This document shows positions 5,191 to 26,981 of a DNA stretch of 64,000 bases, piece by piece. Location: positions 1,137,529 to 1,201,528 of the forward strand of contig NZ_CP022314.1 in the NCBI RefSeq assembly GCF_003352915.1, written 5' to 3'. The notes under the pieces were generated by a model. It saw only the letters and a list, made by a program, of their open reading frames with translations, searched no databases and was not told the DNA's origin. Made by a program: the position numbers and the translations under genes. The DNA is from Arthrobacter sp. PM3 (GTDB taxonomy: Bacteria; Actinomycetota; Actinomycetes; Actinomycetales; Micrococcaceae). Position 1 is the stretch's first letter. The number at the start of each line of letters is the position of its first letter.

Positions 5191-5214
5191 CAGGGACGGC
5201 TTACGGGGCCGCGG

Positions 5215-5961
5215 CTACAGCAGGCTCGCGAAGTCCGCTTTGCTGAGCGCGGCGTAGCGGCCGTAGGCGGCGACCACGGCGGCCTCGATGGCAGCGACGT
5301 CGAGTCCCGGCACGAGGTCATCGGCCGCCCCCGCCGTCGCCGGGTCCCACTCCAGGCCGAGCGCGGCGTAGCTGGCCTCCAGGACAGCGCGGATCGGGGC
5401 GGAATTCTCCACCACGATCACTGAACTGAAGAGCCAGCCGCCGGCGACCACCCGCTGGGCCGTGCCTACCAGTTTAATCCGGCGCTCCGGGACCTGCGGG
5501 TCGGTGCCGTGCACGCTGAATTCGCCGGGGCAGTATTCCCCCGGGATCTCGCCGACGCCGGCATCCACGCCCGCGTCGCGCAGCGCCCGGGCGAGCAGTT
5601 CGCCAAACAACGCAAAGCGGCCCTTGGCCCCGGCGATCGCGTCGGCGTCGGGTTCCAGGTGATCGATGACCAGCGTTCCCTGGTGGTACGCGGCGGCGCG
5701 GCCCCCGGCTTTGCGGACCAGGGGCTCGAAGCCCTGCTCCCGGCAGGCAGCGGCTGCGGCCTCGAACCCGGGCAGGTGCGTGTCGCGCTGCCCGAACGCC
5801 ACCGTGGGAACCGGGCGGTAGAGCCGCAGAGTGGGACCCAGCGCGCCGGCCTTGACCTTCTGGAGCAGCCCGAGGGCGAAGTCGAGGTCGGCGGCGGCGC
5901 CGAGGGATTCTTCCTGCCGGACCAACGTCAGTGTCCGGGGTCCGGCCGGTGCCTGCGGCAT
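5215..5961 (-). CDS. Lipoate-protein ligase A-like protein (BPL/LplA family)
   Basis: A 248-residue protein of the biotin/lipoate ligase fold, which attaches lipoyl (or biotinyl/octanoyl) groups to lysines of carrier domains. Visible family motifs are R-K-A-G-G-R-A-A-A-Y-H-Q-G (the lipoyl-AMP loop with its His), and R-R-I-K-L-V-G-T-A-Q-R, whose Lys matches the catalytic lysine. Longer upstream starts exist, but the ATG at 5961 has GGGAG at proper spacing and removes a tail that overlaps the divergent gene. Only 16 bp separate it from the divergent DUF2177 gene. It lies convergent to the carboxyltransferase; any link to that biotin-type enzyme is only suggestive. Confidence 0.8.
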   Translation of the reverse strand: MPQAPAGPRTLTLVRQEESLGAAADLDFALGLLQKVKAGALGPTLRLYRPVPTVAFGQRDTHLPGFEAAAAACREQGFEPLVRKAGGRAAAYHQGTLVIDHLEPDADAIAGAKGRFALFGELLARALRDAGVDAGVGEIPGEYCPGEFSVHGTDPQVPERRIKLVGTAQRVVAGGWLFSSVIVVENSAPIRAVLEASYAALGLEWDPATAGAADDLVPGLDVAAIEAAVVAAYGRYAALSKADFASLL

Positions 5962-5977
5962 GTTGTTATGCTCCCTT

Positions 5978-6367
5978 ATGGTCATCCTGCAATTCCTCGT
6001 CGTAGCGGCCGCGTTCGCCGTCATCGATGCCATCTGGCTCAAGACGATGAACCCGTTCTACCGCCGCCAGATCGGTGACCTGCTGGCCGACAAGCCCAAT
6101 CTAGGGTACGCGGTGGTGTTCTACGTGATCTACATTGCAGGGATCGTGTTCTTCGCCTTGGGCCCGGCGCTCGACGGCGGCACCTGGCTCACCGCCGTCG
6201 GCTACGGCGCCGCCCTGGGCGTGTTCGGCTACGCCACCTACGATCTGACCAACGCCGCCACGCTCAGGACCTGGCCGTGGCAGCTGATCATCATCGACAT
6301 CCTGTGGGGCGCCGTTCTGACGGCCCTGGCCACCCTGGCCGGCTGGCTGGTCTTCCACACGAGCTAG
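5978..6367 (+). CDS. DUF2177 family membrane protein
   Basis: A 129-residue integral membrane protein with four predicted hydrophobic helices. It carries the DUF2177 hallmarks: an early D-A-I-W-L-K just after helix 1, Y-D-L-T-N-A-A-T-L near residue 85, and W-P-W near residue 96. Function of the family is unknown. There is no clear ribosome-binding site before the ATG at 5978, so it may be translated from a leaderless or near-leaderless transcript, since the divergent ligase start is only 16 bp away. An alternative in-frame ATG lies at 5960. Confidence 0.82.
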   Translation: MVILQFLVVAAAFAVIDAIWLKTMNPFYRRQIGDLLADKPNLGYAVVFYVIYIAGIVFFALGPALDGGTWLTAVGYGAALGVFGYATYDLTNAATLRTWPWQLIIIDILWGAVLTALATLAGWLVFHTS

Positions 6368-6396
6368 GACCCGCCAGGGTCAGGATTGGCGCCGGG

Positions 6397-7200
6397 TCAG
6401 GACTTCCGCAGCGTCAGGATCTGCTCGGCGCGGCCGAACGGTCCGGTGAGGTCGTGCAGCACGGTGGAGGTCAGCCCGATCCCGTCCGTGCCGAACGAGA
6501 CCTCGTTGTCCAGGCCCAGCCACTCCCCCTCCGGCTGCCGGTACATGTGGACCTGCAGATCCAGATTGGGAAAGGCGTAGCTGCCCTTGCCCGGCGGGAC
6601 GCGGGCGGCGATGCCGTTGGCTGTGTCCACGAGCCCGATCAGCCGGGCGAGGTCACCGCTGTCGGCACGGTCGGTCAGCGGGTGGTCGGTGTGCAGCCAC
6701 ACCGTGCCGGAGCCTGCGCGGTGGCCGGCGGCGATCCGCATGTGGAGCGAGGCGATGTAGCCGCCGGGCCAGATTTCCGCGGCGTCGTACGGTTCGCAGT
6801 CCTCCGGCGCAGGGATCCGCGGATCCTCGAACGCCGCGATCGCGGAGGTGTCCGAGGTGATCATCCGCCAGGCGGTGGCCCGGATCGCCGTGCGTCCGGC
6901 CGCCACGAGCTCGGCCTGCACCAGCTCGATGGTCCGGCCGGGACGGAGCGTCGAGGTCACCACTTCAAACTCCCCGCCGGGGATAAGGCCAAGGATCTCG
7001 TAGCTGATCCGGGCCATGCGCATGTCCTCCCGCGGCTCATGCCTGGCCAGGCAGTCGGCCATGATGCCGGACGCGGGGGCCATGTGCTGCTCGTGTTCAT
7101 TCCAGGCACCCTGCGCGTGGATCGTGGAACGGAACCGCCCTTCCCCCAGCACCTGGTAGTAGGAATCGCCCTCGGCCAGAACAGGCAGTTCAGCAGTCAA
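6397..7200 (-). CDS. Acyl-CoA thioesterase-like protein (double hotdog)
   Basis: This 267-residue protein looks like the actinobacterial thioesterase-like superfamily, which has two consecutive hotdog domains (about residues 1-125 and 150-267). The first includes A-S-G-I-M-A-D-C-L-A-R and R-M-A-R-I-S-Y-E-I-L-G-L; the second contains L-I-G-L-V-D-T-A-N-G-I, with the D-x-x-N cluster typical of the active site, and ends in a strand pattern ending G-R-A-E-Q. Such enzymes hydrolyse acyl-CoA. It stands alone between convergent and divergent neighbours. The acyl-chain preference cannot be read from sequence. Confidence 0.75.
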   Translation of the reverse strand: MTAELPVLAEGDSYYQVLGEGRFRSTIHAQGAWNEHEQHMAPASGIMADCLARHEPREDMRMARISYEILGLIPGGEFEVVTSTLRPGRTIELVQAELVAAGRTAIRATAWRMITSDTSAIAAFEDPRIPAPEDCEPYDAAEIWPGGYIASLHMRIAAGHRAGSGTVWLHTDHPLTDRADSGDLARLIGLVDTANGIAARVPPGKGSYAFPNLDLQVHMYRQPEGEWLGLDNEVSFGTDGIGLTSTVLHDLTGPFGRAEQILTLRKS

Positions 7201-7369
7201 CGTCGACCTTTCGCAGCTTCCATCGGAGAATTCCAGACCACCCTATCGCCTCAGGCGCCGACCGCCCGGCGTCCGCTGCGGACGCCATGCTCAATATTCA
7301 GCGTTCGGCCAGCCGGACTGGGTAGACTCGATCCCAGCGTCCGCGACTATTTACCGAAGGGGTGCCCTC

Positions 7370-8080
7370 CTGATCCGAGTCATCAGCTACAACCTCCGCA
7401 AGCACAAGGCCAGTGGTGAGCTGGTCGATCTGGCCCGCGATTTCGAAGTTGATGCTTTGTGCCTCCAGGAGTGCGACACCGAGGACCTGCCGGCCACCAT
7501 CGGCAATCTGCACCTGGCCGACGCCACCCGAGGCAACCGGCTGGGGCTGGCGATCTACTACCGCAAGGACCGCTTCACGGCCTTCGACACCAAAACGTTC
7601 GCGTTGAAGAAGTCCCTGCACGACCGGGTCCTGGCCCCCGCGCACGAGCGGCTCATCGGCACCCGCGTCATGGACAACGAAACCGACCACGAACTCGTCA
7701 TCGCGTCCTTCCACGCAGCGCCGCTGACGGCGTCGAACTCGCTGCGGCGCAACCAGATCCATGCCGCCCACGCGGAGCTCCTGAGCATGGGCGGCGGCTT
7801 GATGTCGCTGATGGTCGGTGACTTCAACTACCCGTTCTTCACCAAGTCCCTGACTGCGCAGATGAAGGACGCCGGCTACGACCTCTCGCTCAGCGACCGC
7901 CGGACCTACACCCGCTACAAGGTCTTCAAGGGCCACTTCGACTTCGCCACGTCGCAGGGGCTGGAAATTGAAAGCGTGGAGACGCTGCCCCGCGGCGCCT
8001 CGGACCACCTCCCCATCCTGATCTCGGCGGAATACGGCCAGGAAGCATCCGGGAACGGTTCGGGTCCGGCCGGTACGTAG
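7370..8080 (+). CDS. Endonuclease/exonuclease/phosphatase family protein (CTG start)
   Basis: This protein of about 236 residues has the DNase I-like fold. Metal and catalytic motifs are clear: N-L-R-K-H near the N-terminus, C-L-Q-E-C-D with the metal-binding Glu, G-D-F-N-Y, and the final S-D-H-L-P-I-L. Conserved N-terminal sequence (I-R-V-I-S-Y-N-L-R-K) lies upstream of the first TTG or ATG-like start. The reading frame there has no ATG, GTG or TTG, but a CTG at 7370 sits seven bases after GAAGGGG. I therefore assign a rare CTG start. The substrate could be a nucleic acid, a phosphoinositide-like molecule or a sugar phosphate. Confidence 0.78.
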   Translation: MIRVISYNLRKHKASGELVDLARDFEVDALCLQECDTEDLPATIGNLHLADATRGNRLGLAIYYRKDRFTAFDTKTFALKKSLHDRVLAPAHERLIGTRVMDNETDHELVIASFHAAPLTASNSLRRNQIHAAHAELLSMGGGLMSLMVGDFNYPFFTKSLTAQMKDAGYDLSLSDRRTYTRYKVFKGHFDFATSQGLEIESVETLPRGASDHLPILISAEYGQEASGNGSGPAGT

Positions 8081-8102
8081 GCGCCGGCCCGGTAAGCGCA
8101 CC

Positions 8103-8135
8103 CGGAAAGAACACCCGGTGAACAAGCGGTGAACC
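8103..8135 (-). promoter_or_regulatory. Putative PHO box: three 11-bp direct repeats
   Basis: Read on the minus strand, three contiguous 11-bp units occur: GGTTCACCGCT (8125-8135), TGTTCACCGGG (8114-8124) and TGTTCTTTCCG (8103-8113). The GTTCACC direct repeat with 11-bp pitch is the known PhoP-binding PHO box of Streptomyces and relatives. It lies 51 bp upstream of the start of the first secreted phosphoesterase, with an AT-richer TTATCTTAACTT at 8153-8164 that could supply a -10. Phosphate-starvation control is therefore likely. Confidence 0.6.
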
Positions 8136-8185
8136 CGGCATAGAAAGCACCCTTATCTTAACTTTGGCGTGATCTACTGCTGGGC

Positions 8186-9451
8186 GTGAACTTTTCCAGA
8201 CGCACATTTCTGACCGCCGGAACGGCAACGGCCACCGCCTTGGCCACCGGCAGCACGCTCCGGGCGGCAACAGCCGCCACGCCCGCGCTGCCGGCACCCG
8301 CAGCCTCCGGAATCGACCACATCGTCGTCGTGATGATGGAGAACCGCTCCTTCGACCACTTCCTCGGCTGGCTGCCGGGGGCCGACGGGAAACAGCCCGG
8401 GCTGAGCTACATCGACCGCTACGGCATCCCGCACTCGACCCACCGCCTGACGGACTTCCAGGGCTGCGGCCATCCGGATCCGGACCATTCCTACGAGGGC
8501 GGCCGGATCCAGTACAACAACGGCAAAAACGACGGCTGGCTCCGCGCCGGCGAGAACGACGAGTTCGCCGTCGGCTACTACGACGCCGCCGACCTCGACT
8601 TCTGGCGGCAGGCCGGCCCCGACTGGACGGTCTGCGACCGGTACTTCGCGGCCACCATGGCCGAAACCTACCCGAACCGTTTCTACCAGCACGCCGCCAC
8701 TACCGACCGGATCCATAACTCAACGGCCACCAGCGCGCTGCCGACCATCTGGGACCGGCTGGCCGCCGCCGGGGTGTCCGGCAAGTACTACTACGGCGAC
8801 ATCCCCTTCACTGCACTGTGGGGCGCCAAGTACCAGGGCATCTCGCACCACTACTCCGGGTTCCTCTCCGACTGTTCCGCGGGGACGCTGCCCGCCGTGT
8901 CCGTTGTGGATCCGCGCTTCACCGACGAGGGCTCGGGAACCTCCGGTGACGACCACCCGCACGCGGACATCCGCTCCGGCGAGACGTTCCTCGCAGAGGT
9001 CTACAACGCGGTGACTGCGGGCCCGGGCTGGGCCAACACGATGCTGGTGATCAACTACGACGAGTGGGGCGGGTTCTACGACCACGTCCCACCGGCGACG
9101 GCCCCGGACACCAGCCCGGCCACAGCCCTGCGCGGCTTCCGGGTTCCCTCCCTGGTGGTCTCGCCCCGCGCCCGGCGCCGGTATGTCGCCCACGACGCCT
9201 ACGACCACACGTCCGTGCTCAAAGCCATCGAATGGCGCTGGAACCTGGCTCCGTTGACCCCGCGCGACAAGGCAGCGCGGAACATCGCCGAAGTCCTGGA
9301 CTTCGGCGCACCGGCCAACCTGACCGCACCCACGTACCTTGTTCCGCCGTTCGTGGCCGGGCCCGCCTGCGCACCTGTAGGACCGCCCCCGGCCGAGGAA
9401 TGGTCCGGACTGAAACAGAAAGCACTCGCCGACGGATGGAAACTGCCTTGA
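8186..9451 (+). CDS. Tat-exported phosphoesterase (phospholipase C-like, alkaline phosphatase family)
   Basis: A 421-residue exported hydrolase. The N-terminus has a twin-arginine signal (S-R-R-T-F-L-T near residues 4-10, then an Ala-rich hydrophobic segment), so it is folded before export through Tat. The mature part belongs to the phosphoesterase family of phospholipase C and acid phosphatase enzymes: M-M-E-N-R-S-F-D-H-F near residue 52 supplies metal ligands, and D-E-W-G-G-F-Y-D-H-V near 292 completes the site. It starts with GTG. It precedes a second phosphoesterase whose start overlaps its end, and a PHO box lies upstream. Together they probably scavenge phosphate from phospholipids or other esters. 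Confidence 0.85.
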   Translation: MNFSRRTFLTAGTATATALATGSTLRAATAATPALPAPAASGIDHIVVVMMENRSFDHFLGWLPGADGKQPGLSYIDRYGIPHSTHRLTDFQGCGHPDPDHSYEGGRIQYNNGKNDGWLRAGENDEFAVGYYDAADLDFWRQAGPDWTVCDRYFAATMAETYPNRFYQHAATTDRIHNSTATSALPTIWDRLAAAGVSGKYYYGDIPFTALWGAKYQGISHHYSGFLSDCSAGTLPAVSVVDPRFTDEGSGTSGDDHPHADIRSGETFLAEVYNAVTAGPGWANTMLVINYDEWGGFYDHVPPATAPDTSPATALRGFRVPSLVVSPRARRRYVAHDAYDHTSVLKAIEWRWNLAPLTPRDKAARNIAEVLDFGAPANLTAPTYLVPPFVAGPACAPVGPPPAEEWSGLKQKALADGWKLP

Positions 9452-15360: not shown

Positions 15361-15390
15361 CGCCGTGCCGTTTTCATGGCTTGGCTGTTC

Positions 15391-15900
15391 TCATGGCTTA
15401 ACCGGGCCCGGGCACACCCTCAGCTGCCAGGGCGCGTTGTCGATCAGCCAGCCGTTCCCGGAGCGCACGAGGTCGAACACGTCTTCGATCTGGTATTCGC
15501 TGCTGCCAAACGGGCCGCCCGGCTCGGACACGGTGATCAGGACCCGCACGTCCGCGGATTCCGGACGCTCGGTGGTGGAGACCAGAGTGACCCGCAGATT
15601 CCGGGCGGCAGGGGCGCCCTCGCTGCCGCACCTGGTCCGCGCCGCCGCCGTCAGGTAGGCGGACGCGGCCCCCTCGTCCCCGGCAATGACCGCCGCGGCG
15701 TAGCGCTGCACGACCCCTGCGGGGCTCGACTCGGCCAACGGCGCCGGTTGCCCGCGGGTGAGCACCACGGCCAGGGCCACGACCACGATCACCACGATCA
15801 CGGCCAGGACAGCCCACAGGGTCCGGCTCGGGTTGACGTCCCCAGGCCCGGGCGGTTCCGGCGGCGCTGCAGGCTGCGGTCCTTCTGGCTGGGGGCTCAT
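15391..15900 (-). CDS. Single-pass membrane-anchored hypothetical protein
   Basis: A 169-residue protein with a short Pro-rich cytoplasmic N-terminus, one strong Val/Ile-rich helix (about residues 28-48) and an external domain of about 115 residues. The external part resembles small NTF2-like/Mce-associated folds in outline (Q-R-Y-A-A-A-V-I-A-G-D near the start; strands L-R-V-T-L-V-S and V-R-V-L-I-T-V) but I cannot assign it firmly. The ATG at 15900 was chosen because it starts the Pro-rich segment; the longer frame would overlap the divergent DUF5129 gene. It is cotranscribed with the DUF5671 gene. Confidence 0.68.
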   Translation of the reverse strand: MSPQPEGPQPAAPPEPPGPGDVNPSRTLWAVLAVIVVIVVVALAVVLTRGQPAPLAESSPAGVVQRYAAAVIAGDEGAASAYLTAAARTRCGSEGAPAARNLRVTLVSTTERPESADVRVLITVSEPGGPFGSSEYQIEDVFDLVRSGNGWLIDNAPWQLRVCPGPVKP

Positions 15901-16005
15901 GCCGCCAGTATGCCTGCCGGGCCCGGACACCGTCATGATGTCTTTCGTCCCGTGTTCCGTGGCGTCAGCGTCGACGCGGCCGGGGCCAGCCACTACGCTC
16001 GAAAA

Positions 16006-17463
16006 ATGGGAATCATGCGCAAGGCCCTCGCCGCCGCGGTCCTGCTGATGGCCGGAGTGCTGGGCGGAGCGCACGCGGCGCTCGCCGTGACGCCGACCGC
16101 CGTCGTGATCGAGGACCGGGCCGGGGTCCTGGACCGCAACCGGCTCCTGCCTGCCGTCGAGGCCACCGATTTCTACCAGCCGACCAAAGTTGCGGTGTAC
16201 ACCTACAACGGCACGGCCGCGGACAACCTCAACGAGGAAGTCCTCAGGTTCGCCCGCGCCGAACACCCCGAATGGATCAGCCCCGACGGGCAGAAATGGG
16301 CCGACGGGCTGTTCATCTTCGCCCTGGACCCGACGGGCCGGCACGTCGGGACGTACATGGGCGAGGACCGCAAGGTCTCCCCCGACCAGCGCGAGGACAT
16401 CCAGAACGCGTCCAAGGAGCTGCTCCGCGATGCCCAATGGACCGACGGTACGATTGCCGGGATCCGGCGCGGCGCCGAACTCATCAACCAGCCGTGGTAC
16501 CGGTCCACGGCCTTCCTCGTGACGGCCTGGGCGGCGGTGGCCGCCGCGGTCTGCGGCGCTGCCGCCTGGCTGATCGTCCGCTGGCGCACCCGTGTGTCCT
16601 GCCGCAGGGAGCTCGAACGCGGCGACGCCAGCTACGCGAACGTCAGCATGGACCTGCAGGTCACCGAGCTCAACGCCAGCACCATTCCGGAGTCCTCACG
16701 GTACGGCAGCACCGTGCTGGAGAAGCACCGCACCTTCCTGGCCCGGTACAACACGGCCACCGCGTTAGCCAATCAGGTCCACGCCCTCAGCAGCCGGGAC
16801 CTGAGCCGCCGGCCCAACCTGAAACTTGTCCGCAGCTACGCCGATGCGGCGGCCGAACTCGACGCGCTGGACGACGTCATCGCGGACACCAACACGCTGC
16901 TGAACCGCGGCGCGGCGTGGCCGGCCGCGTGGGAGCACCAGCTCGCCCCGTTCCGCAGTGACCTGAACGGCGTCGAGGAACTGCTCAGCCAGCGCCGCGG
17001 CGAGGGCTCATCGGCGACCGCGGCCGCCCTGAGGTCCTTCCGCGACGAAAGCCGCAGCGATCTCGAACGCTGGACGGCAGAGCTCGCGGACGGCACCATC
17101 ACACCCGAGACGGCGCTGGACCGGCTGCGTGATGCCCGGACCCGGCTGTCAGACCTCCTGAAAAACCACGCCGAAACCGTGATCGGCGCCTACGCCCGCA
17201 ACGAAAAGGAAGCCGGCCTCATGCGCAAAGAGATGGAGGCCGCGCAGACGGGGGCGCGGCCGGGGGCCAGGTACGGCCGCACCTGGGAGCCAAGCATCCT
17301 CGGCACGGTGTACCCGTCCTACTACTTCTTCTCGGTGCCGACCTTCAATTCAGGCCTCAGCACCGGGGTCAGCAGCGTCAGCACTGCCCGCGGCGGCACC
17401 ACCACCGGGTATGGCTCCAGCGGCGGCAGCTTTTCCGGGTCCGGGAGCTCGTCGAGTTTTTGA
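16006..17463 (+). CDS. DUF5129 family secreted/membrane protein (TPM-like N-domain)
   Basis: A 485-residue envelope protein found in Arthrobacter relatives. A signal peptide (M-R-K-A-L-A-A-A-V to A-L-A, about residues 4-29) precedes a TPM-like domain starting I-E-D-R-A-G-V-L-D. A second helix near 167-190 is followed by Arg residues and a long helical, coiled-coil-like cytoplasmic region (about 200-410). The tail is Gly/Ser-rich and ends G-S-F-S-G-S-G-S-S-S-S-F, like TPM proteins. The ATG at 16006 fits the signal peptide; the longer frame does not. It diverges from the DUF5671 pair. Function is unknown. Confidence 0.75.
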   Translation: MGIMRKALAAAVLLMAGVLGGAHAALAVTPTAVVIEDRAGVLDRNRLLPAVEATDFYQPTKVAVYTYNGTAADNLNEEVLRFARAEHPEWISPDGQKWADGLFIFALDPTGRHVGTYMGEDRKVSPDQREDIQNASKELLRDAQWTDGTIAGIRRGAELINQPWYRSTAFLVTAWAAVAAAVCGAAAWLIVRWRTRVSCRRELERGDASYANVSMDLQVTELNASTIPESSRYGSTVLEKHRTFLARYNTATALANQVHALSSRDLSRRPNLKLVRSYADAAAELDALDDVIADTNTLLNRGAAWPAAWEHQLAPFRSDLNGVEELLSQRRGEGSSATAAALRSFRDESRSDLERWTAELADGTITPETALDRLRDARTRLSDLLKNHAETVIGAYARNEKEAGLMRKEMEAAQTGARPGARYGRTWEPSILGTVYPSYYFFSVPTFNSGLSTGVSSVSTARGGTTTGYGSSGGSFSGSGSSSSF

Positions 17464-17526: not shown

Positions 17527-17721
17527 TTAGGTGCCGTTGCCGGGCCGTTCGACGACGAAGTCCCCGCCGGGGAACATGATCGTCTCGTGGCCGTCGTCAA
17601 ACCTGACGTGGTACGGCGGCGCGCCGTCGGCTCCCTTCACTTCGAGGATCAGTCCGTGCCGGTCCGCGGACTCGACCGTGGTCCCCCGGACGATGATGCG
17701 GTCCCCTGCGGCTGCCTTCAT
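17527..17721 (-). CDS. DUF1918 domain protein
   Basis: A 64-residue basic-to-neutral protein with an SH3-like beta-barrel signature: A-G-D-R-I-I-V-R-G-T-T-V, then G-L-I-L-E-V and Y-H-V-R-F-D-D-G-H-E-T, ending with F-P-G-G-D-F. This matches DUF1918, a common small actinobacterial protein of unknown role. I chose the ATG at 17721 because AGGTGA lies five bases before it; another in-frame ATG at 17736 has only a weak site. Confidence 0.85.
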   Translation of the reverse strand: MKAAAGDRIIVRGTTVESADRHGLILEVKGADGAPPYHVRFDDGHETIMFPGGDFVVERPGNGT

Positions 17722-17799
17722 GGCGATCACCTGCATTTCTCTTGACGCCTGTGTGCCCGAAGATCATTATTGCTCTTGACGGCTGGGGGCGCTATGGCC

Positions 17800-17950: not shown

Positions 17951-20900
17951 GTGGTGCCGGCCATGATGGCGGCCATCCTCCGCTTAGTCATGCAGTTCCG
18001 GCTCCTGGTGCTGGCGGTTGCGGCGGGCATCGTGGCGTTCGGCTTCACAAGCCTGCCGGGCATGTCCGTGGATGCCTTTCCGGAATTCGCTCCGCCGCAG
18101 GTGGAGATCCAGACCGAGGCCCTGGGCTTGTCCGCCGCCGAGGTGGAACAACTCGTCACTTCCCCCATGGAGGCCGACCTCCTGAACGGGGTGGCCTGGG
18201 TGGAGGCGATCCGGTCCAAGTCCGTGCCCGGCCTGTCCTCGATCCAGATGGTCTTCAAGCCGGGGACTGACCTCTTCCGCGCACGCCAGCTGGTCGCCGA
18301 ACGACTGACCCAGGCCCGCGCACTGCCCAACGTTTCCGCGGCGCCGGTACTGATGCAGCCGCTGTCCTCGACCAGCAGGGTCATGATGGTCCGGCTGACC
18401 TCCAGCACCATGTCGGCCATCGACATGTCCATCCTGGCCCGCTGGACCATGAAGCCGGGCCTCTTAGCCGTGCCGGGCGTTGCCAACGTGGCGATCTGGG
18501 GCCAGCGCGACCAGCAGCTTCAAGTCCTGGTTGATCCGGCCCGGCTGCAGGCCAAGGGCGTGACGCTGGACGAAGTTATCAAGACGACCGGAAACTCCGT
18601 GTGGGTCTCGCCTTTGAGCTACCTGGAAGCATCCACGCCGGGCACCGGCGGGTTCTTCGAGACGAGCCACCAGCGGATCGGCATCCAGCATGTCCTGCCG
18701 ATCACCACCCCGGAGGATCTGGGCCAGGTTCCCGTCGAGGGGGCGGCCGGTCACCTCCTGCTCAAGGACGTGGCGACCGTGTCGACGGACCACCAGCCGC
18801 TGATCGGCGACGCCCTGCTGGGCAAGGACGCCGAACTGCTGCTGGTGATCGAGAAGTTCCCCGAAACGAACACGATGGACGTGACCAGGGGCGTTGACGA
18901 GGCCCTGCACGCACTCCAGCCGGGACTGCCCGGCGTCACGATCGATACCAGCGTCTACCGGCAGGCCTCCTTCATCCAGGAAGAGATCGGTACCTTGGGC
19001 ATCGCCCTGCTGGTCACGCTGTTGCTGATCGTGGCGATGTTCGGCGGGTTCTTCCGCTCCTGGCGCACGGCCCTGATCAGCCTCATCACCATTCCGGTGT
19101 CACTGACAGCGGCCGCCCTGGTGCTGGATCTGCGTGGCACCGGGATGAACACTATGGTTCTGGCCGGCATGGTGCTCGCCCTTGCCGTCATCGTCGGCGA
19201 TGTCGCCGAAGACCTGGCCGGGATCGCCCGGGCCGCCCGTAACGACCCGGCGCAGGCACGCGAAGCCCTGATCCCGGCGGCCCTGCAGTCCGTCCGCACG
19301 CCGATGCTGTACGCACTGCTGATCATGGCGCTGGCGGTCACGCCCGCACTCTTCATCGCAGGCGAGAACGAGGCCCTCTTCGGACCCCTGATCCAGAGCT
19401 TCCTGCTCGCCCTCGTTGCGTCCATGGTCGTCGCGGTGACCGTCACGGCGGCCCTGGCGTACTACCTTCCCGTGGGCTCCGCGGCGGCGGAACGCCGGCC
19501 CCTGCGGCGGCTTGAGGGCGCCTACGGCCGGCTCCTGGCGCGCCTGAAGGCCCGGACGCTCTGGGTATTTGCCGCGTCCGCGGTGGTGGCCCTCGCCGGG
19601 CTGGCCCTCGTTCCCGTCCTTGCCGCCGGCCATCCGGTAGTGCCGGTCCTTGCCGACAAGACGCTGGTGGTGCACTGGAACGCGGTGGCCGGCACGTCCG
19701 ATCAGGAAATGAGCCGGATCACCGAGGCGGCCGCGGTCGAATTGCGTGCCCTCCCCGGTGTGGCCAACGTCGGAGGACACGTCGGACGTGCGATCACCTC
19801 GGACCAGGTCGGCGACGTCAGCTCCGGCGAGCTGTGGGTGACTGTCGCCGCCGACGCGTCCTACCCGGACACCGTGACCGCCGTCGACCGGGTGATAGCA
19901 GGCTACCCGGGCCTGACCAGCAAGATCTCCACGTACCCGCAGGAACGCATCGACCAGATCCGGGAAGAGGCCGACGCCGGCTTTGCCGTGCGGGTGTTCG
20001 GACTCGACCCGGCCGTCCTGCGGCAGAAGGCCGCCGAAGTGCAGCAGGTCCTGGAGCACACGGCCGGCGTCGTCAATCCGCATATAGACCTTCCCCCTGA
20101 ACAGCCGATCGCCGAGGTCAAGGTGGACCTCGCGGCGGCCCAGAAGGCCGGCATTGTTCCCGGCGACGTGCGGCGCGCGGCCGCCGCCCTGCTCCAAGGC
20201 ATCGAAGTGGGCAACCTGTACGAACAGCAGAAGGTGTTCTCGGTCATCGTGAAGGGAACCGCAGACACCCGGAACAGCCTGGACAGCGTCCGCGACCTGA
20301 TCATCGACACCCCCGGCGGCGGCCACGCCCGGCTCGGTGACGTCGCCCAGGTCGCCATGGTCGGGAACGAGTCCGTGATCCTGCACGATGACACCTCGCG
20401 GCGCGTCGATGTGAAAGCGGACATCCAGGGCCGCCCGCTGGCCGATATCCAGAATGACATCAACGCCAGCCTGCAGAAGATGCAGTTCCCCATGTCCTAC
20501 CACGCCGAGATCCTCACCCAATACGCCCAGCAGCAAGCGAACTACCAGTGGCTCTGGCTGCTCGCGGCCATCGCCGCGGCAGGCATCCTGGTCCTGCTGC
20601 AGACGGCCACGGGCAGCTGGCGGCTCGCCGCCGCGCTCTTCCTGGGCCTGGTCGTAGCCCTGTCCGGCGGCGTGCTCGCCGCCCAGGCCACGGGCGGGAT
20701 CAACGCGCTGGTGGCGCTGGCCGCCTTCGCCGCGGTCGTCGGGATCGCCGTCCGCGGCGCCCTCCTGCTGACCGGCCGCGTCCGGAGCCTGCAGGTGCAG
20801 GACCCGGCGGCACCATGGCCGGCGATCGTGGTGCGCGGCACCCGGGAAAGATTCGGACCTGTCCTGATGACCGCCCTGATGACAGGCCTGGCGCTGGTGC

Positions 20901-21103
20901 CCCTGGTCCTGTTGGGCGGCGTCGTCGGCACCGAGATCATTCAGCCACTCGCCGTGATCATCTGGGGCGGGCTGCTGACAACCACCCTCTTCACCCTGTT
21001 CGGTGTCCCCGCCGTGCTGCTTCGGCTCGAGCCGAAGCCGGCACCCGCCGCACCGACCCGCCAGGACACCGCCGCACGGACTGAAAGCCAGGACGCGTCA
21101 TGA
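17951..21103 (+). CDS. RND efflux permease, CzcA/CusA-like, with altered proton-relay motif
   Basis: A 1050-residue inner-membrane transporter of the resistance-nodulation-division superfamily, of normal length, with the heavy-metal-type N-terminus (V-D-A-F-P-E-F-A-P-P-Q-V-E-I-Q-T). Helix 4 normally carries acidic residues that relay protons; here the motif is V-I-V-G416-D417-V-A-E-D421-L-A423-G. Compared with the second permease of this cluster, the first Asp is Gly and the later Glu is Ala. It is therefore possibly a partner with reduced proton coupling in a mixed trimer. The GTG at 17951 is annotated; ATG codons at 17963 or 17966 are alternatives. Its stop overlaps the mini-adaptor start as ATGA. 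Confidence 0.86.
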   Translation: MVPAMMAAILRLVMQFRLLVLAVAAGIVAFGFTSLPGMSVDAFPEFAPPQVEIQTEALGLSAAEVEQLVTSPMEADLLNGVAWVEAIRSKSVPGLSSIQMVFKPGTDLFRARQLVAERLTQARALPNVSAAPVLMQPLSSTSRVMMVRLTSSTMSAIDMSILARWTMKPGLLAVPGVANVAIWGQRDQQLQVLVDPARLQAKGVTLDEVIKTTGNSVWVSPLSYLEASTPGTGGFFETSHQRIGIQHVLPITTPEDLGQVPVEGAAGHLLLKDVATVSTDHQPLIGDALLGKDAELLLVIEKFPETNTMDVTRGVDEALHALQPGLPGVTIDTSVYRQASFIQEEIGTLGIALLVTLLLIVAMFGGFFRSWRTALISLITIPVSLTAAALVLDLRGTGMNTMVLAGMVLALAVIVGDVAEDLAGIARAARNDPAQAREALIPAALQSVRTPMLYALLIMALAVTPALFIAGENEALFGPLIQSFLLALVASMVVAVTVTAALAYYLPVGSAAAERRPLRRLEGAYGRLLARLKARTLWVFAASAVVALAGLALVPVLAAGHPVVPVLADKTLVVHWNAVAGTSDQEMSRITEAAAVELRALPGVANVGGHVGRAITSDQVGDVSSGELWVTVAADASYPDTVTAVDRVIAGYPGLTSKISTYPQERIDQIREEADAGFAVRVFGLDPAVLRQKAAEVQQVLEHTAGVVNPHIDLPPEQPIAEVKVDLAAAQKAGIVPGDVRRAAAALLQGIEVGNLYEQQKVFSVIVKGTADTRNSLDSVRDLIIDTPGGGHARLGDVAQVAMVGNESVILHDDTSRRVDVKADIQGRPLADIQNDINASLQKMQFPMSYHAEILTQYAQQQANYQWLWLLAAIAAAGILVLLQTATGSWRLAAALFLGLVVALSGGVLAAQATGGINALVALAAFAAVVGIAVRGALLLTGRVRSLQVQDPAAPWPAIVVRGTRERFGPVLMTALMTGLALVPLVLLGGVVGTEIIQPLAVIIWGGLLTTTLFTLFGVPAVLLRLEPKPAPAAPTRQDTAARTESQDAS

Positions 21104-21567
21104 ACGCCACACCGTCGCCGCGGGGAAAGAAGACCGCGGCCCTCATCCTCGGAGCAGTGCTGGCGGCTCTCACGGCACTGGGCGCGGCGGGCTGCGCCCC
21201 GGCACCGGAGGCCGCCCCGGCCGACGACGACCCCGTGACCATCAGCGAAGTGCCCGGGACGGACCTGCACCGCCTCGCCCTGACCGAGCACGCCGTCGAC
21301 CGCGTCGGGATCCGGACCGACACGGCCGCGGCGGATCCCGCCACCGGGAAACTGACCGTCCCCTACTCGGCAATCATTTACGACAGCGCGGGCAAGACAT
21401 GGGTGTATACGACCCCGGAGCCGCGGGTCTACGTCCGCCGGCCCATCACGGTCGAACGCATCAACGGCGCGGTGGCAGTGCTGAGCGACGGCCCGGCGGC
21501 AGGGACGGCCGTGGTGACGACGGGAGCCGAGGAACTGTTCGGCGCCGAGTTCGATACGGCCCACTGA
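21100..21567 (+). CDS. Mini-adaptor lipoprotein (C-terminal part of an RND membrane-fusion protein)
   Basis: This 155-residue lipoprotein has a signal with the lipobox A-A-G-C32. The mature part resembles only the C-terminal, membrane-proximal part of CusB/CzcB-type adaptors: V-P-Y-S-A-I-I-Y-D-S-A-G-K-T-W-V-Y, then R-R-P-I-T-V-E-R-I-N-G and G-T-A-V-V-T-T-G-A-E-E-L-F. The long coiled hairpin and lipoyl domain that reach an outer-membrane channel are missing, which makes sense in a Gram-positive. It starts as ATGA over the upstream stop and ends one base before the second permease, so all three are translationally linked. Confidence 0.75.
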   Translation: MNATPSPRGKKTAALILGAVLAALTALGAAGCAPAPEAAPADDDPVTISEVPGTDLHRLALTEHAVDRVGIRTDTAAADPATGKLTVPYSAIIYDSAGKTWVYTTPEPRVYVRRPITVERINGAVAVLSDGPAAGTAVVTTGAEELFGAEFDTAH

Positions 21568-21568
21568 C

Positions 21569-24500
21569 ATGCGCTGGCTCATCGGGATCAGCCTCAGGTT
21601 CAGGACCGTGGTGGTCGCCATCGCGTGTGCCGTGATGCTGCTCGGGTCCCTGCAACTGGGGTCCGCGTCCGTGGACGTCTTTCCCGAGTTCGCCCCGCCG
21701 CGGGTGGAAATTCAAACCGCGTGCCTGGGCTTGACCGCCCAGGAAGTCGAGGAACTGGTCAGCGTGCCGATCGAAGCCGCCGTGAGCGGCATGCCGGGCC
21801 TGGACGAACTGCGGTCAAAATCGGTGCCGCAGCTGTCCTCGATCGTGCTGGTTTTCCACCAGGGCACCGATCTGCTCAACGCCCGGCAGCAGGTCTCGGA
21901 GCGGATGGCTTCAGTGACGGCGGCGCTCCCGACGTGGGCGGCCCCGCCGGTGATGCTGCAGCCGCTGTCCGCGACCAGCCGGGTCATGAAGATCGGCATG
22001 ACCTCCTCCGAGCACTCCCTCATCGAAATGTCCATGCTGTCCTACTGGACCATCCGGGCCCGGCTCCTGCGGGTCCCGGGCGTCGCGAACGTGGCCATCT
22101 GGGGCGAGCGCCTGCAGATGCTCCAGGTCCAGGTGGAGCCGGAGAAGCTCAAGGCGCAGAACGTCTCCCTCAACCAGGTCATGGAGGTCACCGCCGGCGC
22201 CCTCGACGCGGGCCTGCTGAAGTACTCGCCCGGACGGTTCATCGGCACCGGCGGTTTCATCGACAGCCCCAACCAGAGGATGGGGATCCGGCACGTCCAG
22301 CCGATCCAGACCCCCGCGGACCTGGCCCAGGTCACGATCCGGGAAAAGGACGGGGTTGCCCTGCACCTGGGTGATGTGGCCCAGGTGGTGGAGGACCACC
22401 AGCCGCTCATCGGCGACGCGGTGATCAACAGCGGGCACGGGCTCATGCTGATCGTCGAAAAGCTGCCCTGGGGCAACACCCTGGACGTGACCAAGGGTGT
22501 TGAAGAAGCCCTCCACGAGCTGCAGCCGGGCCTGAGCGGCATCAGCTTCGATACCACCATCTTCCGCCCGGCAAGCTTCGTTGAGGAGTCGATCTCCAAC
22601 CTCAGCACCGCCCTGCTGCTGGGCTGCCTGCTTGTGGTCATGATCCTGGTCGCGTTCCTCTTCCAGTGGCGCACGGCGCTGATCAGCCTCATCGCCATCC
22701 CGTTGTCCCTGCTGACCGCCGCACTCGTGCTGTACTTCACGGCCAGTTCGATCAACACCATGGTCCTGGCCGGACTGGTCATCGCGGTGGGCGTCGTGGT
22801 CGACGACGCGATCATCGACGTCGAAAACATCATGCGCCGTCTGCGGCAGCACCGCGCCGCGGGTCTTAAGGGCTCGGGCAGCAACGAATCCGCGGCTTCG
22901 GTGGTCCTGAAAGCCTCGCTCGAGATGCGCAGCCCGATCGTGTACGCGACCCTGATCATCGTGGTCGCCGCCGTGCCCATCTTCTTCCTCGAGGGACTGA
23001 CCGGCGTCTTCTTCCGGCCCCTCGCCATCACTTACACCCTGGCAGTCATGGCTTCCATGCTGGTGGCACTGACCGTCACGCCGGCACTGGCCCTGATCCT
23101 GCTGGGCAACGCCAAACTGGAACAGCGCGACGCTCCCCTGGTCCGGGTGCTCAAGCGCGGCTACCACGCTGTCCTGTCCAGGGTCATGAACCGGCCCCGC
23201 TACGGGTATGCGGCCTTCGGCGCGCTCGCCCTCGTGGGACTGGCCATTGTCCCCGTGATGGGACAGTCCCTGTTCCCCACGTTCAAGGAACGTGACTTCC
23301 TGATGCACTGGGTGTCGCAGCCCGGGACCTCCGCGGAGGAGGAGTACCGGATCTCGCAGCGCGGCTGCGCGGAGTTCCTCCAGGTGCCCGGCGTCCTGAA
23401 CTGCGGCACCCACATCGGCCAGGCGTTCGCCGCCGACGAGATCGTCGGCGTCAACGCCGGCGAACACTGGATCAGCATCGACCGGCACGCGGACTACGAC
23501 AAGACCCTCGCCGCCGTCCAGGAAGTGGTGGACGGCTATCCGGGCCTGCACCGTGATGTGCAGACCTACCTCAAGGAGCGGATCGAAGAGGTCCTGACGG
23601 GCGCCAGCGAACCCATCCTGGTCCGCGTCTACGGGGATGACCTGGCCACGCTCCGGGAGCAGGCCCAACGGGTCAAGGCCATCCTGGACGCCATCCACGG
23701 CACCGAGGACGCGCACGTCTCCCTTGAGGTGGAAGTCCCGCAGATCTCCGTCACCGTCAACCTTGCCGCGGCACAGAAATACGGGCTCAAGCCCGGCGAC
23801 GTGAGGCGGGCCGCTGCGACGCTGGTGGCCGGCGAGGAAGTCGGGGACGTCTTCCGGGAGGGCCGGGCGTACGACGTCCAGGTCTGGAGCACCCCGGCGA
23901 CGCGCGCCAGCGTGACCAGCATCGAGGACCTGCCGATCGACACCCCCAGCGGCCAGCGGGTCCGGCTCGCCGACGTCGCCGCCGTGAGCCTGCAGGCCGT
24001 ACCGAACCAGATCGACCGCACCAACGGATCACGCCGCGTGGAAGTTGGCTCGTTCCTCGCCCAGGGCGCAGACCTTGGCGCAGTGGTCGGCGAGCTGCAG
24101 TCACAGCTGGACAAGCTGCAGCTGCCCCCCGGCTACAGCGTGCAGTTGCTCGGTGAGTACACGGAACGCGAGGCCGCCACCAACCGCCTCATGATCTTCG
24201 CCCTGGCGGCGCTGGCCCTGATCCTCCTGCTGCTGCAGACCTCCTTCCGAAGCTGGCGGCTGGCCGTACTGTCGCTGCTGACGCTGCCGATCGCCCTGGT
24301 GGGCGGGGTCATCGCCGCCTACATGACCGGCGGCGTCCTGTCCCTGGGTTCGGTGGTCGGGTTCCTGACCGTGATGGGGATCGCCGCGCGCAACGGCATC
24401 CTGCTCATCAACCACTGCCAGCATCTGGAACGGCACGAGGGCGAGCCTTTCGGCCGTGCCCTGGTGATGCGCGGGGCCTCGGAGCGGCTCTCGCCGATCC

Positions 24501-24724
24501 TGATGACCACCCTGGCAACCGGACTGGCACTGGTGCCCCTCGTGGTCATGGGCAATGTCCCCGGCCACGAAATCGAACACCCCATGGCCGTCGTCATCCT
24601 CGGCGGCCTGGTCACCTCCACCCTGCTCAACCTGTTCATCGTTCCGTCGCTGTACCTCCGGTTCGCCAAATCCCGGAAAACACTCGAACGGGAACGCGCT
24701 GCAGCCGGCCCGGCTACCGCCTGA
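21569..24724 (+). CDS. RND efflux permease, CzcA/CusA-like, intact proton-relay motif
   Basis: A 1051-residue RND permease, paralogous to the one upstream (same V-D-V-F-P-E-F-A-P-P-R-V-E-I-Q-T start, same topology of helix 1, large external loop, helices 2-6, second loop, helices 7-12). Helix 4 reads V-V-V-D412-D413-A-I-I-D417-V-E419-N-I, the full acidic set of the family, so it should be proton driven. The start ATG is one base after the adaptor stop. Together with the first permease and adaptor it probably exports a metal ion or amphiphile from the membrane. The substrate cannot be told from sequence. Confidence 0.9.
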   Translation: MRWLIGISLRFRTVVVAIACAVMLLGSLQLGSASVDVFPEFAPPRVEIQTACLGLTAQEVEELVSVPIEAAVSGMPGLDELRSKSVPQLSSIVLVFHQGTDLLNARQQVSERMASVTAALPTWAAPPVMLQPLSATSRVMKIGMTSSEHSLIEMSMLSYWTIRARLLRVPGVANVAIWGERLQMLQVQVEPEKLKAQNVSLNQVMEVTAGALDAGLLKYSPGRFIGTGGFIDSPNQRMGIRHVQPIQTPADLAQVTIREKDGVALHLGDVAQVVEDHQPLIGDAVINSGHGLMLIVEKLPWGNTLDVTKGVEEALHELQPGLSGISFDTTIFRPASFVEESISNLSTALLLGCLLVVMILVAFLFQWRTALISLIAIPLSLLTAALVLYFTASSINTMVLAGLVIAVGVVVDDAIIDVENIMRRLRQHRAAGLKGSGSNESAASVVLKASLEMRSPIVYATLIIVVAAVPIFFLEGLTGVFFRPLAITYTLAVMASMLVALTVTPALALILLGNAKLEQRDAPLVRVLKRGYHAVLSRVMNRPRYGYAAFGALALVGLAIVPVMGQSLFPTFKERDFLMHWVSQPGTSAEEEYRISQRGCAEFLQVPGVLNCGTHIGQAFAADEIVGVNAGEHWISIDRHADYDKTLAAVQEVVDGYPGLHRDVQTYLKERIEEVLTGASEPILVRVYGDDLATLREQAQRVKAILDAIHGTEDAHVSLEVEVPQISVTVNLAAAQKYGLKPGDVRRAAATLVAGEEVGDVFREGRAYDVQVWSTPATRASVTSIEDLPIDTPSGQRVRLADVAAVSLQAVPNQIDRTNGSRRVEVGSFLAQGADLGAVVGELQSQLDKLQLPPGYSVQLLGEYTEREAATNRLMIFALAALALILLLLQTSFRSWRLAVLSLLTLPIALVGGVIAAYMTGGVLSLGSVVGFLTVMGIAARNGILLINHCQHLERHEGEPFGRALVMRGASERLSPILMTTLATGLALVPLVVMGNVPGHEIEHPMAVVILGGLVTSTLLNLFIVPSLYLRFAKSRKTLERERAAAGPATA

Positions 24725-24735
24725 AGGAAGATCCG

Positions 24736-25656
24736 ATGTTTCGCAAGCACAATCCAGTTCTCAGTTGCCTCGCAGCCTGCAGCCTGATCACCGGCTGGCT
24801 TGTCGCCGTGCCGCTGTCACTCCTGACGGCCGGCGCAGCGCAGGCCGGCGCAGCACAGGCCGGCACAGCGGCTGCCGCTACCGCCACCGACTGCGGCCCG
24901 GGGTCCCTGCCCGACTTCAAGGCGGGCAGTTTCCCGGACTCGCCGGACGTGGACAACACCTGGCTGCCCATGGAACCGGGAACACGCTCCGATTTCAGCG
25001 GCACGGTCACGGATCTCACCACCAGCCCGCCGGAGGTCCACAAGCACCGCGTGGTGTCGATCGTGACGGGCCTGACCAAAATGGTTGACGGCGTTCGCAC
25101 GGTAGTCCTGTGGGACCGGGACTACTCGGACGGAGTCCTCGAGGAATCCGAACTGGCCTTTTTTGCCCAGACCCGCAAGGGTGCGGTCTGGCTGCTGGGC
25201 GAGTATCCCGAGGAGTTCGATAACGGCAAATTCTCCGGCGCCCCCAATACGTTCGTCTCAGGAGTCGACAACGCCCGGGCCGGCATCGCCATGCTGGCCC
25301 ACCCCGAACCGGGAACCGGCCCCTACACCCAGGCCTCAGCGCCCGCGATTGACTTCCTTGACTGCGGCCAGGTGGTCAGCCGCAAAGCCAATGTGTTGAA
25401 GATTGACGAGTTCAACCCCCTCGAGGGGGCCTCAGCCGGTCATCAGCAAAAGTACTACCGCGCCGGAGTGGGCAGTTTCAAGGTCACGGCCTCCGGCGGC
25501 GACAGCCAGGAAGTCTTGAACCTCGACTCGACCACAACGCTGAGTGCCGGTGCCCTGGCCGCCGTCAACCAGCGGGCCCTGGCCCAGGACCGCCACGGCT
25601 ATAAGGTGAGCCCGGACGTCTACGGCACAACCGAGCGGGCCCGCGCGGGGTGTTGA
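24736..25656 (+). CDS. Secreted hypothetical protein linked to the RND module
   Basis: A 306-residue exported protein beginning 11 bases after the second RND permease with an AGGAAG ribosome-binding site. The signal peptide ends around an A-Q-A-G repeat (A-Q-A-G-A-A-Q-A-G). Mature sequence includes N-T-W-L-P-M-E-P-G-T, V-L-W-D-R-D-Y-S-D-G-V-L-E-E-S-E-L, and W-L-L-G-E-Y, with paired cysteines (near residues 53, 211 and the terminal residue). It resembles a conserved actinobacterial family without known function. Position suggests a substrate-binding or periplasm-like accessory of the exporter. Confidence 0.7.
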   Translation: MFRKHNPVLSCLAACSLITGWLVAVPLSLLTAGAAQAGAAQAGTAAAATATDCGPGSLPDFKAGSFPDSPDVDNTWLPMEPGTRSDFSGTVTDLTTSPPEVHKHRVVSIVTGLTKMVDGVRTVVLWDRDYSDGVLEESELAFFAQTRKGAVWLLGEYPEEFDNGKFSGAPNTFVSGVDNARAGIAMLAHPEPGTGPYTQASAPAIDFLDCGQVVSRKANVLKIDEFNPLEGASAGHQQKYYRAGVGSFKVTASGGDSQEVLNLDSTTTLSAGALAAVNQRALAQDRHGYKVSPDVYGTTERARAGC

Positions 25657-25683: not shown

Positions 25684-26802
25684 TCAGAACAGCGCGGCGG
25701 TCACGGTGCGGGTGAGCTCCTGGATGATCCAGGTCCGGGGGGCCATGTCCGCGTAGCTCTTGCCGCGGGTGTACACGACGAACACGTAGGCCCGGCCGTC
25801 CTTGACCAGGATGCTGGCATCGTGCAGGTTTCCGAACAGCAGCCCGTACTTGTGATAAACCTCGATTCCGGGCGGAACAGCCGGCGGGATCAGCGTTTCG
25901 TAGTTCGTGTGCTGCATGTAGGAGAGCAGCTGGGCCGTGTGCGGCCCGTTCAGCAGCTGCCCCGTGTAGAGCAACTGAAGTATGCGGCCCATCTCGGCCG
26001 GGGTCAGCAGGTTCACCGTGCGGTCGTAGGTGATCCCGATGGACGCGGCATAATCCGTGATGCCCCGCTGACCGACGGCCTGAAGGATCAACGCCCACGA
26101 ATCGTTGTTGCTTTGCTGGACCATCTGGCGGATTTGGACCCCGGCCGTCGAGGCGCCCATCCGGGCGGTCAGCGACGCACGCCCGGTCTCGACCAGGTGG
26201 TAGTAAGCCGATGCCGCCAGGATTTTGGCCGTACTGGCGGCCACGAAGTTTCCTTTGACCCCGTAGTTGTGGACCTCGCCGTTCGAGACGTCGATGAGCG
26301 ACACCCCCAGCGCATACGCGCTGTTGGCCGCGATGATGCCGTTGATCCGGCTGCCCAGTTCAGGGCTGACGCCCCCGGCCGGGGCGACGGCGGGGACCTC
26401 CGCGGGCTTGGCGGCGGGAGCGGCGGCGGGTGCGGACACAGGCGCAGGCGGGGCGGGCGCGGAGGCGGGCAAATCGGTGGCTTCCGGTGCGGCGGCCGGG
26501 CCGGCGTCCGTGACTGCCGGCGGTGACGACGGCAGCGCCGTCACCGGCGGCGCCGTCACCGGGGGCGCGGCGCTGGTGGGCGCGGCGGCAACCGCGGGCG
26601 GGTCGGCCGGCGGCCCTGACAGTCCGGCGGCATAGACGCCGCCGGTGCCCACCAGGGCAACCGCGACGGCGGCAGCCGTCAGATAGCGGGCCCGCAACCG
26701 CCCTGAACGCCACGCAGACCACGCGACAGGCCGCGGACCGGGGTTTGACCCGCCGTCGGCCCGGTGCCCGCCGGACCCGTAGTGGCGCGCCGGCCCGGAC
26801 AT
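25684..26802 (-). CDS. Beta-lactamase-like serine hydrolase, membrane anchored
   Basis: A 372-residue protein with one N-terminal helix (L-T-A-A-A-V-A-V-A-L-V-G-T-G-G near residues 41-55), a 90-residue Pro/Ala linker that spans the wall, and a class A beta-lactamase/transpeptidase-like domain. The S-x-x-K motif is S190-T-A-K193; S-N-N-D follows in place of S-D-N, and H-K-Y-G replaces the K-T-G triad. The last change makes real beta-lactamase activity doubtful; a peptidoglycan or esterase role is as likely. The ATG at 26802 is preferred to longer starts because it begins before the basic segment and helix. Confidence 0.75.
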   Translation of the reverse strand: MSGPARHYGSGGHRADGGSNPGPRPVAWSAWRSGRLRARYLTAAAVAVALVGTGGVYAAGLSGPPADPPAVAAAPTSAAPPVTAPPVTALPSSPPAVTDAGPAAAPEATDLPASAPAPPAPVSAPAAAPAAKPAEVPAVAPAGGVSPELGSRINGIIAANSAYALGVSLIDVSNGEVHNYGVKGNFVAASTAKILAASAYYHLVETGRASLTARMGASTAGVQIRQMVQQSNNDSWALILQAVGQRGITDYAASIGITYDRTVNLLTPAEMGRILQLLYTGQLLNGPHTAQLLSYMQHTNYETLIPPAVPPGIEVYHKYGLLFGNLHDASILVKDGRAYVFVVYTRGKSYADMAPRTWIIQELTRTVTAALF

Positions 26803-26981
26803 CAGGACGCTGCCCGGTTCACGGGCCCGCAAGCGTTCGCAGGCATGGGTCCTCCTCCGAAACTTGGCCGCGGTGATGCAATAAAGTTCCTGCATTCTTC
26901 ACCGCCACCGCCTCCCGCGCAAGAGCCCGGGCCCATTAATCGGCGGCGGCCGGACGGCCAGCGCGGCGGCAACGCCGCCGC

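Follow-up and report, generated by a model that had tools for sequence, protein, structure and literature searches.

A four-gene set with two RND permeases in Arthrobacter and one-sided loss of a proton-relay residue among its relatives

Trimeric resistance-nodulation-division (RND) pumps are usually explained as three equal protomers, each equipped with a proton relay, that cycle one after another. Here we describe a gene set within a 64,000-nucleotide (nt) stretch of Arthrobacter sp. PM3 DNA (NZ_CP022314.1, positions 1,137,529 to 1,201,528; "the window") that encodes two different RND permeases, RND-A and RND-B, a very short adaptor (the mini-adaptor) and a predicted secreted protein, protein C. 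The nearest named subfamily, and the nearest PDB sequences, are CusA, CzcA and ZneA. The set differs from these in that its permeases fall under the family cut-off and are two in number, and no outer-membrane partner gene was found nearby.

Paired permeases are known from MdtBC, MuxBC and SmeJK (HAE-1 clade B, with the MdtB2C heterotrimer), which likewise have two adjacent RND genes from a single duplication. MdtBC works with TolC, and its adaptor MdtA has 415 amino acids (aa), unlike the hairpin-less mini-adaptor found here. Labor is divided in MdtBC, the relay of the MdtB subunit mattering more (PMC4338810, in the part of that paper available). An earlier note on this DNA, made from the sequence alone, had likened RND-A and RND-B to MdtB and MdtC. 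The comparison is apt as a parallel for having two permeases, but it fails for residue loss: MdtB is reported to keep both aspartates (accessible text of PMC12802153) and MdtC reads VVDDAIVVLEN. It is also a parallel rather than kinship, MdtBC representing on our tree a separate duplication in a different RND branch.

Other described systems share single features with the set. The mycobacterial trimeric RND pump MmpS5-MmpL5 is likewise actinobacterial, with a small accessory protein, and unlike tripartite pumps (PMC12501195, available part), but it belongs to the HAE-2 family and has one kind of permease, a coiled-coil tube and an Ig-like partner with a transmembrane (TM) helix. Sterol transport by BstA, BstB and BstC likewise combines an RND permease with separate lipid carriers (PMC10942540, available part); however, BstA, which has been compared to HpnN, is an RND of the MMPL type, and BstB belongs to a substrate-binding-protein family that is not LolA-like. 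BesA, of Borrelia BesABC, keeps lipoyl and beta-barrel domains and its pump has a TolC-like channel, whereas the adaptors of about 150 aa described here consist of the membrane-proximal domain only. A 2024 survey of 6205 RND permeases from 920 Gram-negative proteomes, with Gram-positives excluded, places tandem permeases solely in the MdtBC clade in its available sections (PMC10872679), and the A/B set falls outside that picture. A literature search of titles and abstracts, with partial coverage and few subscription journals, did not find a two-permease RND system of this branch or this gene set.

Gene layout and relay residues

The set comprises the following features of the window.

17951..21103, forward strand: RND-A, 1050-aa permease of the ACR_tran family (PF00873, 489 bits) whose TM4 is non-canonical; placed by the tree in the A clade
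17951, forward strand: GTG start codon of RND-A, from which its residues are numbered; alternative ATG at 17963
18599..18631, forward strand: 11-residue extension of the protruding (trimerisation) loop of RND-A, roughly residues 217-227, the precise position of the gap being arbitrary
19166..19234, forward strand: TM4 of RND-A, GMVLALAVIVGDVAEDLAGIARA, with G416 at 19196-19198 and A423 at 19217-19219
21100..21567, forward strand: mini-adaptor, 155-aa lipoprotein (Cys32), essentially a single membrane-proximal domain
21569..24724, forward strand: RND-B, 1051-aa permease of the ACR_tran family (PF00873, 717 bits) whose relay is intact (D412, D413, E419, R941)
22202..22234, forward strand: 11-residue extension of the protruding loop of RND-B, with B-specific sequence, about residues 212-222
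22772..22840, forward strand: TM4 of RND-B, with D412 at 22802-22804 and E419 at 22823-22825
24736..25656, forward strand: protein C, 306 aa, predicted to be secreted from its N-terminal sequence, predicted LolA/YmcC-like half-barrel

The genes for RND-A, the mini-adaptor and RND-B are arranged head to tail. The RND-A and mini-adaptor genes overlap by 4 nt (21100-21103), whereas a 1-nt gap separates the mini-adaptor from RND-B. The earlier note had taken gene overlap as a sign of fixed stoichiometry; this does not hold, as only one of the two junctions overlaps and overlap is uninformative on stoichiometry. Protein C, whose gene begins 11 nt after the end of RND-B, is a fourth gene outside the region that the note considered (17951-24724).

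The translations bear out the residues on which the earlier note was built. RND-A has G at 416 and A at 423 (VIVGDVAEDLAGI), where RND-B has D412 and E419 (VVVDDAIIDVENI). In the alignment, RND-B D412 corresponds to AcrB D407 and CusA D405, and RND-B E419 to CusA E412. The acid of the CusA D405 column, which we take to be an essential relay residue in CusA and AcrB, is present in RND-B and absent from RND-A (G416). RND-A retains the neighboring acid D417 (RND-B D413), an acid at the RND-B D417 column and the TM10 arginine. This pattern is stable among the best 120 of 7998 RND-A homologues, which include the window's own protein and some fragments: in all 120 the D412 column holds G and the adjacent D413 column holds D, 118 have D at the D417 column, and E421 is replaced by another residue in 26. 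Close RND-A homologues were found in Arthrobacter and Pseudarthrobacter records. The genome itself encodes a second, diverged A'/adaptor'/B'/C set outside the window (C1:1023632-1031395; L003, L005), with 55% identity between A and A', 70% between B and B', and an identical TM4 asymmetry.

One-sided loss and constraint across related loci

A contig scan gave 202 loci, of which the best 80 were taken, 78 with both permeases. These, further genome loci and both sets of the host genome yielded 106 pairs. Removal of 6 duplicates (A identical over residues 201-500) left 100 distinct pairs, among which near-identical strains are still included; open reading frames (ORFs) had to score at least 300 bits, and permease pieces had to reach 600 aa. 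The 100 pairs are mutually related. Records name eight or more phyla for A/B loci, several of the non-actinobacterial loci being metagenome bins that are possibly misassigned. In a Chloroflexota sample, a pair lies on one contig in 8 of 251 genomes.

RND-B retains D412 and D413 in all 100 pairs, E419 in 99, and the TM10 arginine in all 96 sequences readable at that column. RND-A retains D412 in only 39; the residue is otherwise G (55), T (2) or, once each, Y, H, A and N. D413 persists in 98 RND-A proteins (E in the other 2), the TM10 arginine in 96 and E419 in 19. On the tree, D412 was lost at least five separate times in RND-A and never in the 100 RND-B. The separate losses are in the Micrococcales-type A branch (G, T), L065 (Y), L087 (H), L088 (A) and L099/L142 (N); the 55 G cases all fall within the Micrococcales-type branch and represent one inherited event. 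The RND-A of L088, from Oricola (5084-8245), is strongly decayed, with FADAFLSN as TM4 and proline at the TM10 arginine column.

The survey of helix 4 upholds the suggestion that one partner is reduced, with a qualification. Loci in which both partners keep the full acidic set, which the earlier note had named as evidence to the contrary, exist among older relatives: D412, D413 and E419 are all present in RND-A in 17 of the 100 pairs. Because these older relatives retain the full set in both partners, loss of D412 is, as judged from alignment and tree, a derived state of the Micrococcales branch and scattered lineages. By the same comparison, the asymmetry is a recurring one-sided loss, always of the A partner among the sets examined. 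Repeated relay loss in a fixed partner constitutes a natural test of whether every protomer needs power, and the family also tests which half of the RND machine does what.

The two permeases travel together. The adaptor gene lies between A and B in 98 of 99 pairs checked; in L086 the A-B gap has no adaptor and an adaptor match occurs upstream of A. Among 39 genomes of the host's genus and order, A-type matches were found in 6, and a B-type match lies 538-583 bp away in 9 of 9 instances. No A without B was seen among the loci except at contig ends (L028 and L073 stop there, and the B of G239 lies on a contig edge). The permease of L127 (G668) stands alone and is more distantly related.

RND-A evolves faster than RND-B, with a median A/B distance ratio of 1.68 over 780 comparisons among 40 loci (domain borders placed by eye on RND-B). 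In the same loci, the A:B entropy ratio is 0.94 for the N-terminal and 1.39 for the C-terminal porter half, reaches 4.8, 3.8, 4.1 and 3.5 in TM4, TM10, TM11 and TM12, and is 1.1-2.6 in the other helices. Among 11 Arthrobacter-type loci the median ratio of nonsynonymous to synonymous substitution rates (dN/dS) is 0.13 in A, compared with 0.08 in B. Split by domain, the N porter half gives 0.059 for A against 0.030 for B, the C porter half 0.10 against 0.11, and the membrane halves 0.22-0.24 against 0.08-0.09; at this short range even the N porter half of RND-A evolves faster than that of RND-B. RND-A is under purifying selection, which is weakest in the membrane helices. Given the low dN/dS and the local nature of the excess divergence, we conclude that RND-A is maintained by selection. 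The open frame and the dN/dS value speak against a pseudogene.

Origin of the pair and its partner proteins

A quick, midpoint-rooted tree of 118 sequences chosen for spread places all 57 A rows in a single clade (support 100) and B on one side of a branch with weak support (39). MdtB and MdtC group together near AcrB, outside the A/B group, and CusA lies on the A/B side. On this tree A and B are the two sides of one old duplication, apart from MdtBC, and two-permease RND systems seem to have arisen here a second time, independently. The sister lineage, under the midpoint root, consists of single permeases of Methylomonas, Sphingobium and Hymenobacter (about 51-55% identity to RND-B). Unlike the A/B sets, these have one permease, an adaptor of 314-414 aa and a TolC-family gene alongside; they are without the loop extension, and protein C was not found within the flanks searched. 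The Hymenobacter plasmid genes (L123 929-4102, L126 3351-11397) adjoin PAP2 phosphatases, an undecaprenyl-diphosphate phosphatase and a protein with a lipid-A-disaccharide synthase N-terminal domain, hinting at envelope lipids. The Sphingobium gene (L124 2723-4781) adjoins arsenic resistance (ars) genes.

The loop that AcrB inserts into its neighbor (AcrB 199-223) was measured between two fixed anchors. There are 32 residues between the anchors in 100 of 100 A and in all 99 readable B, compared with 21 in 16 of 17 other RND proteins and 25 in the remaining one, AcrB. The 11 additional residues, absent from all 17, are of the WVSPLSFLEAS type in A and of the DAGLLQYSPGA type in B. In AcrB this loop enters a tunnel of the next subunit and accounts for 46.9% of the interface, and removing 17 of its residues abolishes trimerisation (PMC3230630, available part). 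The shared extension fits a mixed A/B trimer, although it is not proof of one. The single old duplication, constant adjacency and shared extension make A-B pairing likely. A mirror-tree correlation, considered as proof of A-B contact, was set aside because shared descent explains it.

The mini-adaptor scores 20.5 bits against the RND periplasmic adaptor model TIGR01730 (cut-off 94.9), with a match confined to the profile's C-terminal portion. The fold of the membrane-proximal domain is present in its predicted model. A lipoyl domain and an alpha-hairpin were not seen in the adaptor alignments (A2 and A4) or in that model. Adaptors beside single permeases have 314-414 aa, and those beside pairs have 244-289 or 109-188 aa; 93 of 98 have a lipobox-like motif. 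The series may record a trimming path of the RND adaptor where no channel is used. The expectation that there is no outer-membrane channel is borne out: no TolC-family (OEP) match was found in the host genome or in the flanks (at most 9 kb) of 80 related loci, using a profile that recovered each of its six training proteins in leave-one-out trials. It is not a Gram-positive peculiarity, as the earlier note implied, since hairpin-less adaptors also occur in Ensifer and in a Bacteroidetes bin. Absence of the channel looks like a trait of the whole family.

Protein C was found in 14 of 17 genomes with the pair and in 0 of 379 without it (the scan scored two candidates per genome). Both partners lie on one contig in 14 of the 17 genomes and on two contigs in G120; G239 and G422 have only B-type pieces. 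Protein C is thus strongly linked to the pair as a fourth member of the set, and provides a handle on the cargo. Its predicted fold is a LolA/YmcC-like, carrier-like half-barrel. In sequence searches the window's own protein C matched nothing in Pfam or the PDB, and no NCBIfam model above its cut-off. The family may be distantly related to DUF3108-like proteins: one of 26 aligned relatives matches DUF3108_like (E 3e-5), and three long relatives reach 24.8, 28.4 and 38.7 bits, where the cut-off is 27. Protein C relatives often occur twice near the set, or in a longer form of about 490-600 aa that resembles two copies in one chain (L066, L068, L075, L079, L139, L140; P0241-P0286).

Proposed working of the set and the alternatives

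With moderate confidence, we interpret the four genes as encoding one pump with two permeases, in which B is the motor, A the substrate-handling or structural partner, and cargo perhaps passes to protein C with no outer-membrane channel involved. We infer that A and B, sisters from an old duplication, assemble as a mixed trimer. RND-B, proton-driven, would supply movement. RND-A would keep a substrate-handling porter half while its relay has been relaxed and, here, reduced; coupled through the trimer, it would undergo the same periplasmic motions as B and handle substrate. These putative steps resemble the published view of MdtBC (PMC4338810, available part). The lipid-anchored mini-adaptor may cap or steady the porter ring. 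As it corresponds only to the permease-seated part of an adaptor, and would be too short for an outer-membrane channel, cargo would be released just outside the cytoplasmic membrane, where secreted protein C probably receives or presents it. The LolA-like predicted fold of protein C makes a hydrophobic molecule a likelier cargo than a metal. RND-A may not be fully unpowered, since it retains one aspartate and the TM10 arginine. More tentatively, the duplication may have given rise to a widespread and so far undescribed type of RND exporter: a motor permease and a substrate permease that is losing power, held in one trimer by the enlarged loop, would be capped by a lipoprotein made of the membrane-proximal domain only and would feed a dedicated secreted LolA-like carrier, exporting lipid-type molecules without an outer-membrane duct in monoderms and diderms alike.

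The mixed trimer has to be weighed against separate, co-regulated homotrimers, A3 and B3, that share one mini-adaptor, with A3 serving as a weak or unpowered gate or binding protein. Both permeases are of full ACR_tran length, the evidence for contact is not direct, and a distinct version of the loop extension in each would also suit homotypic trimers. We nevertheless regard this arrangement as unlikely: an Arthrobacter A3 would have no complete relay and yet A is under purifying selection, A is seen without B only at contig ends, and the extension occurs in both copies but in none of the other RND proteins compared. Alternatively, RND-A may be powered by a rearranged relay, in which D417 and D422, joined by E421 in the majority of close relatives, substitute together with the TM10 arginine for the lost acids. 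The near-invariance of the D413 and D417 columns among close homologues, and of the TM10 arginine among the 100 pairs, favors such a relay. It seems improbable, given that the lost residue occupies the column presumed essential in CusA and AcrB, that E421 is replaced in about a fifth of those homologues (26/120), that TM10-12 of RND-A are relaxed as a whole, and that other lineages lost D412 differently (Y, H, A, N).

Annotation would instead suggest a CusA/CzcA-type heavy-metal efflux pump adapted to a Gram-positive cell. TIGR00914 (CusA/CzcA) is the best NCBIfam model for both permeases, ZneA is the closest PDB sequence to both, and some public names among the matches listed are CusA/CzcA, most being only "efflux RND transporter permease subunit". 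Both permeases, however, score under the TIGR00914 cut-off of 701 bits (RND-A 363, RND-B 584). At the columns of M573, M623 and M672 of CusA, presumably its metal-binding methionines, the window's A and B have H/H, S/A and Q/E. None of the five window neighbors scanned is a metal gene, though the Sphingobium single-permease relative adjoins ars genes, and the fold predicted for the linked protein C resembles that of a carrier. We therefore doubt that the set is a metal pump. That RND-A is merely decaying after duplication, with no present role, is very improbable: its faster evolution and repeated loss of relay residues would fit, but its dN/dS is low, its N porter half is as conserved as that of B over the 40 loci, and A has been retained in loci assigned by record names to eight or more phyla.

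An all-against-all comparison of flank ORFs for a conserved gene that might name the substrate gave chiefly ORFs antisense to the set's own genes or overlapping them, and an ABC permease in four loci. In two Chloroflexota loci (L060 12213-14605, L076 12192-14626), genes that by eye are ABC ATPase-like and ABC permease-like lie between RND-A and the adaptor, and a permease related to the inserted one is near the set in L063 and L065. Upstream in the window are genes for a DUF5129 protein (15376-17463, forward strand) and a DUF1918 protein (17527-17736, reverse strand), relatives of which occur upstream in 8 Arthrobacter loci. Just 3' of the set, and convergent with it, is a gene for a Beta-lactamase2-type (PF13354) protein (25684-26895, reverse strand), which also has relatives in 8 Arthrobacter loci.

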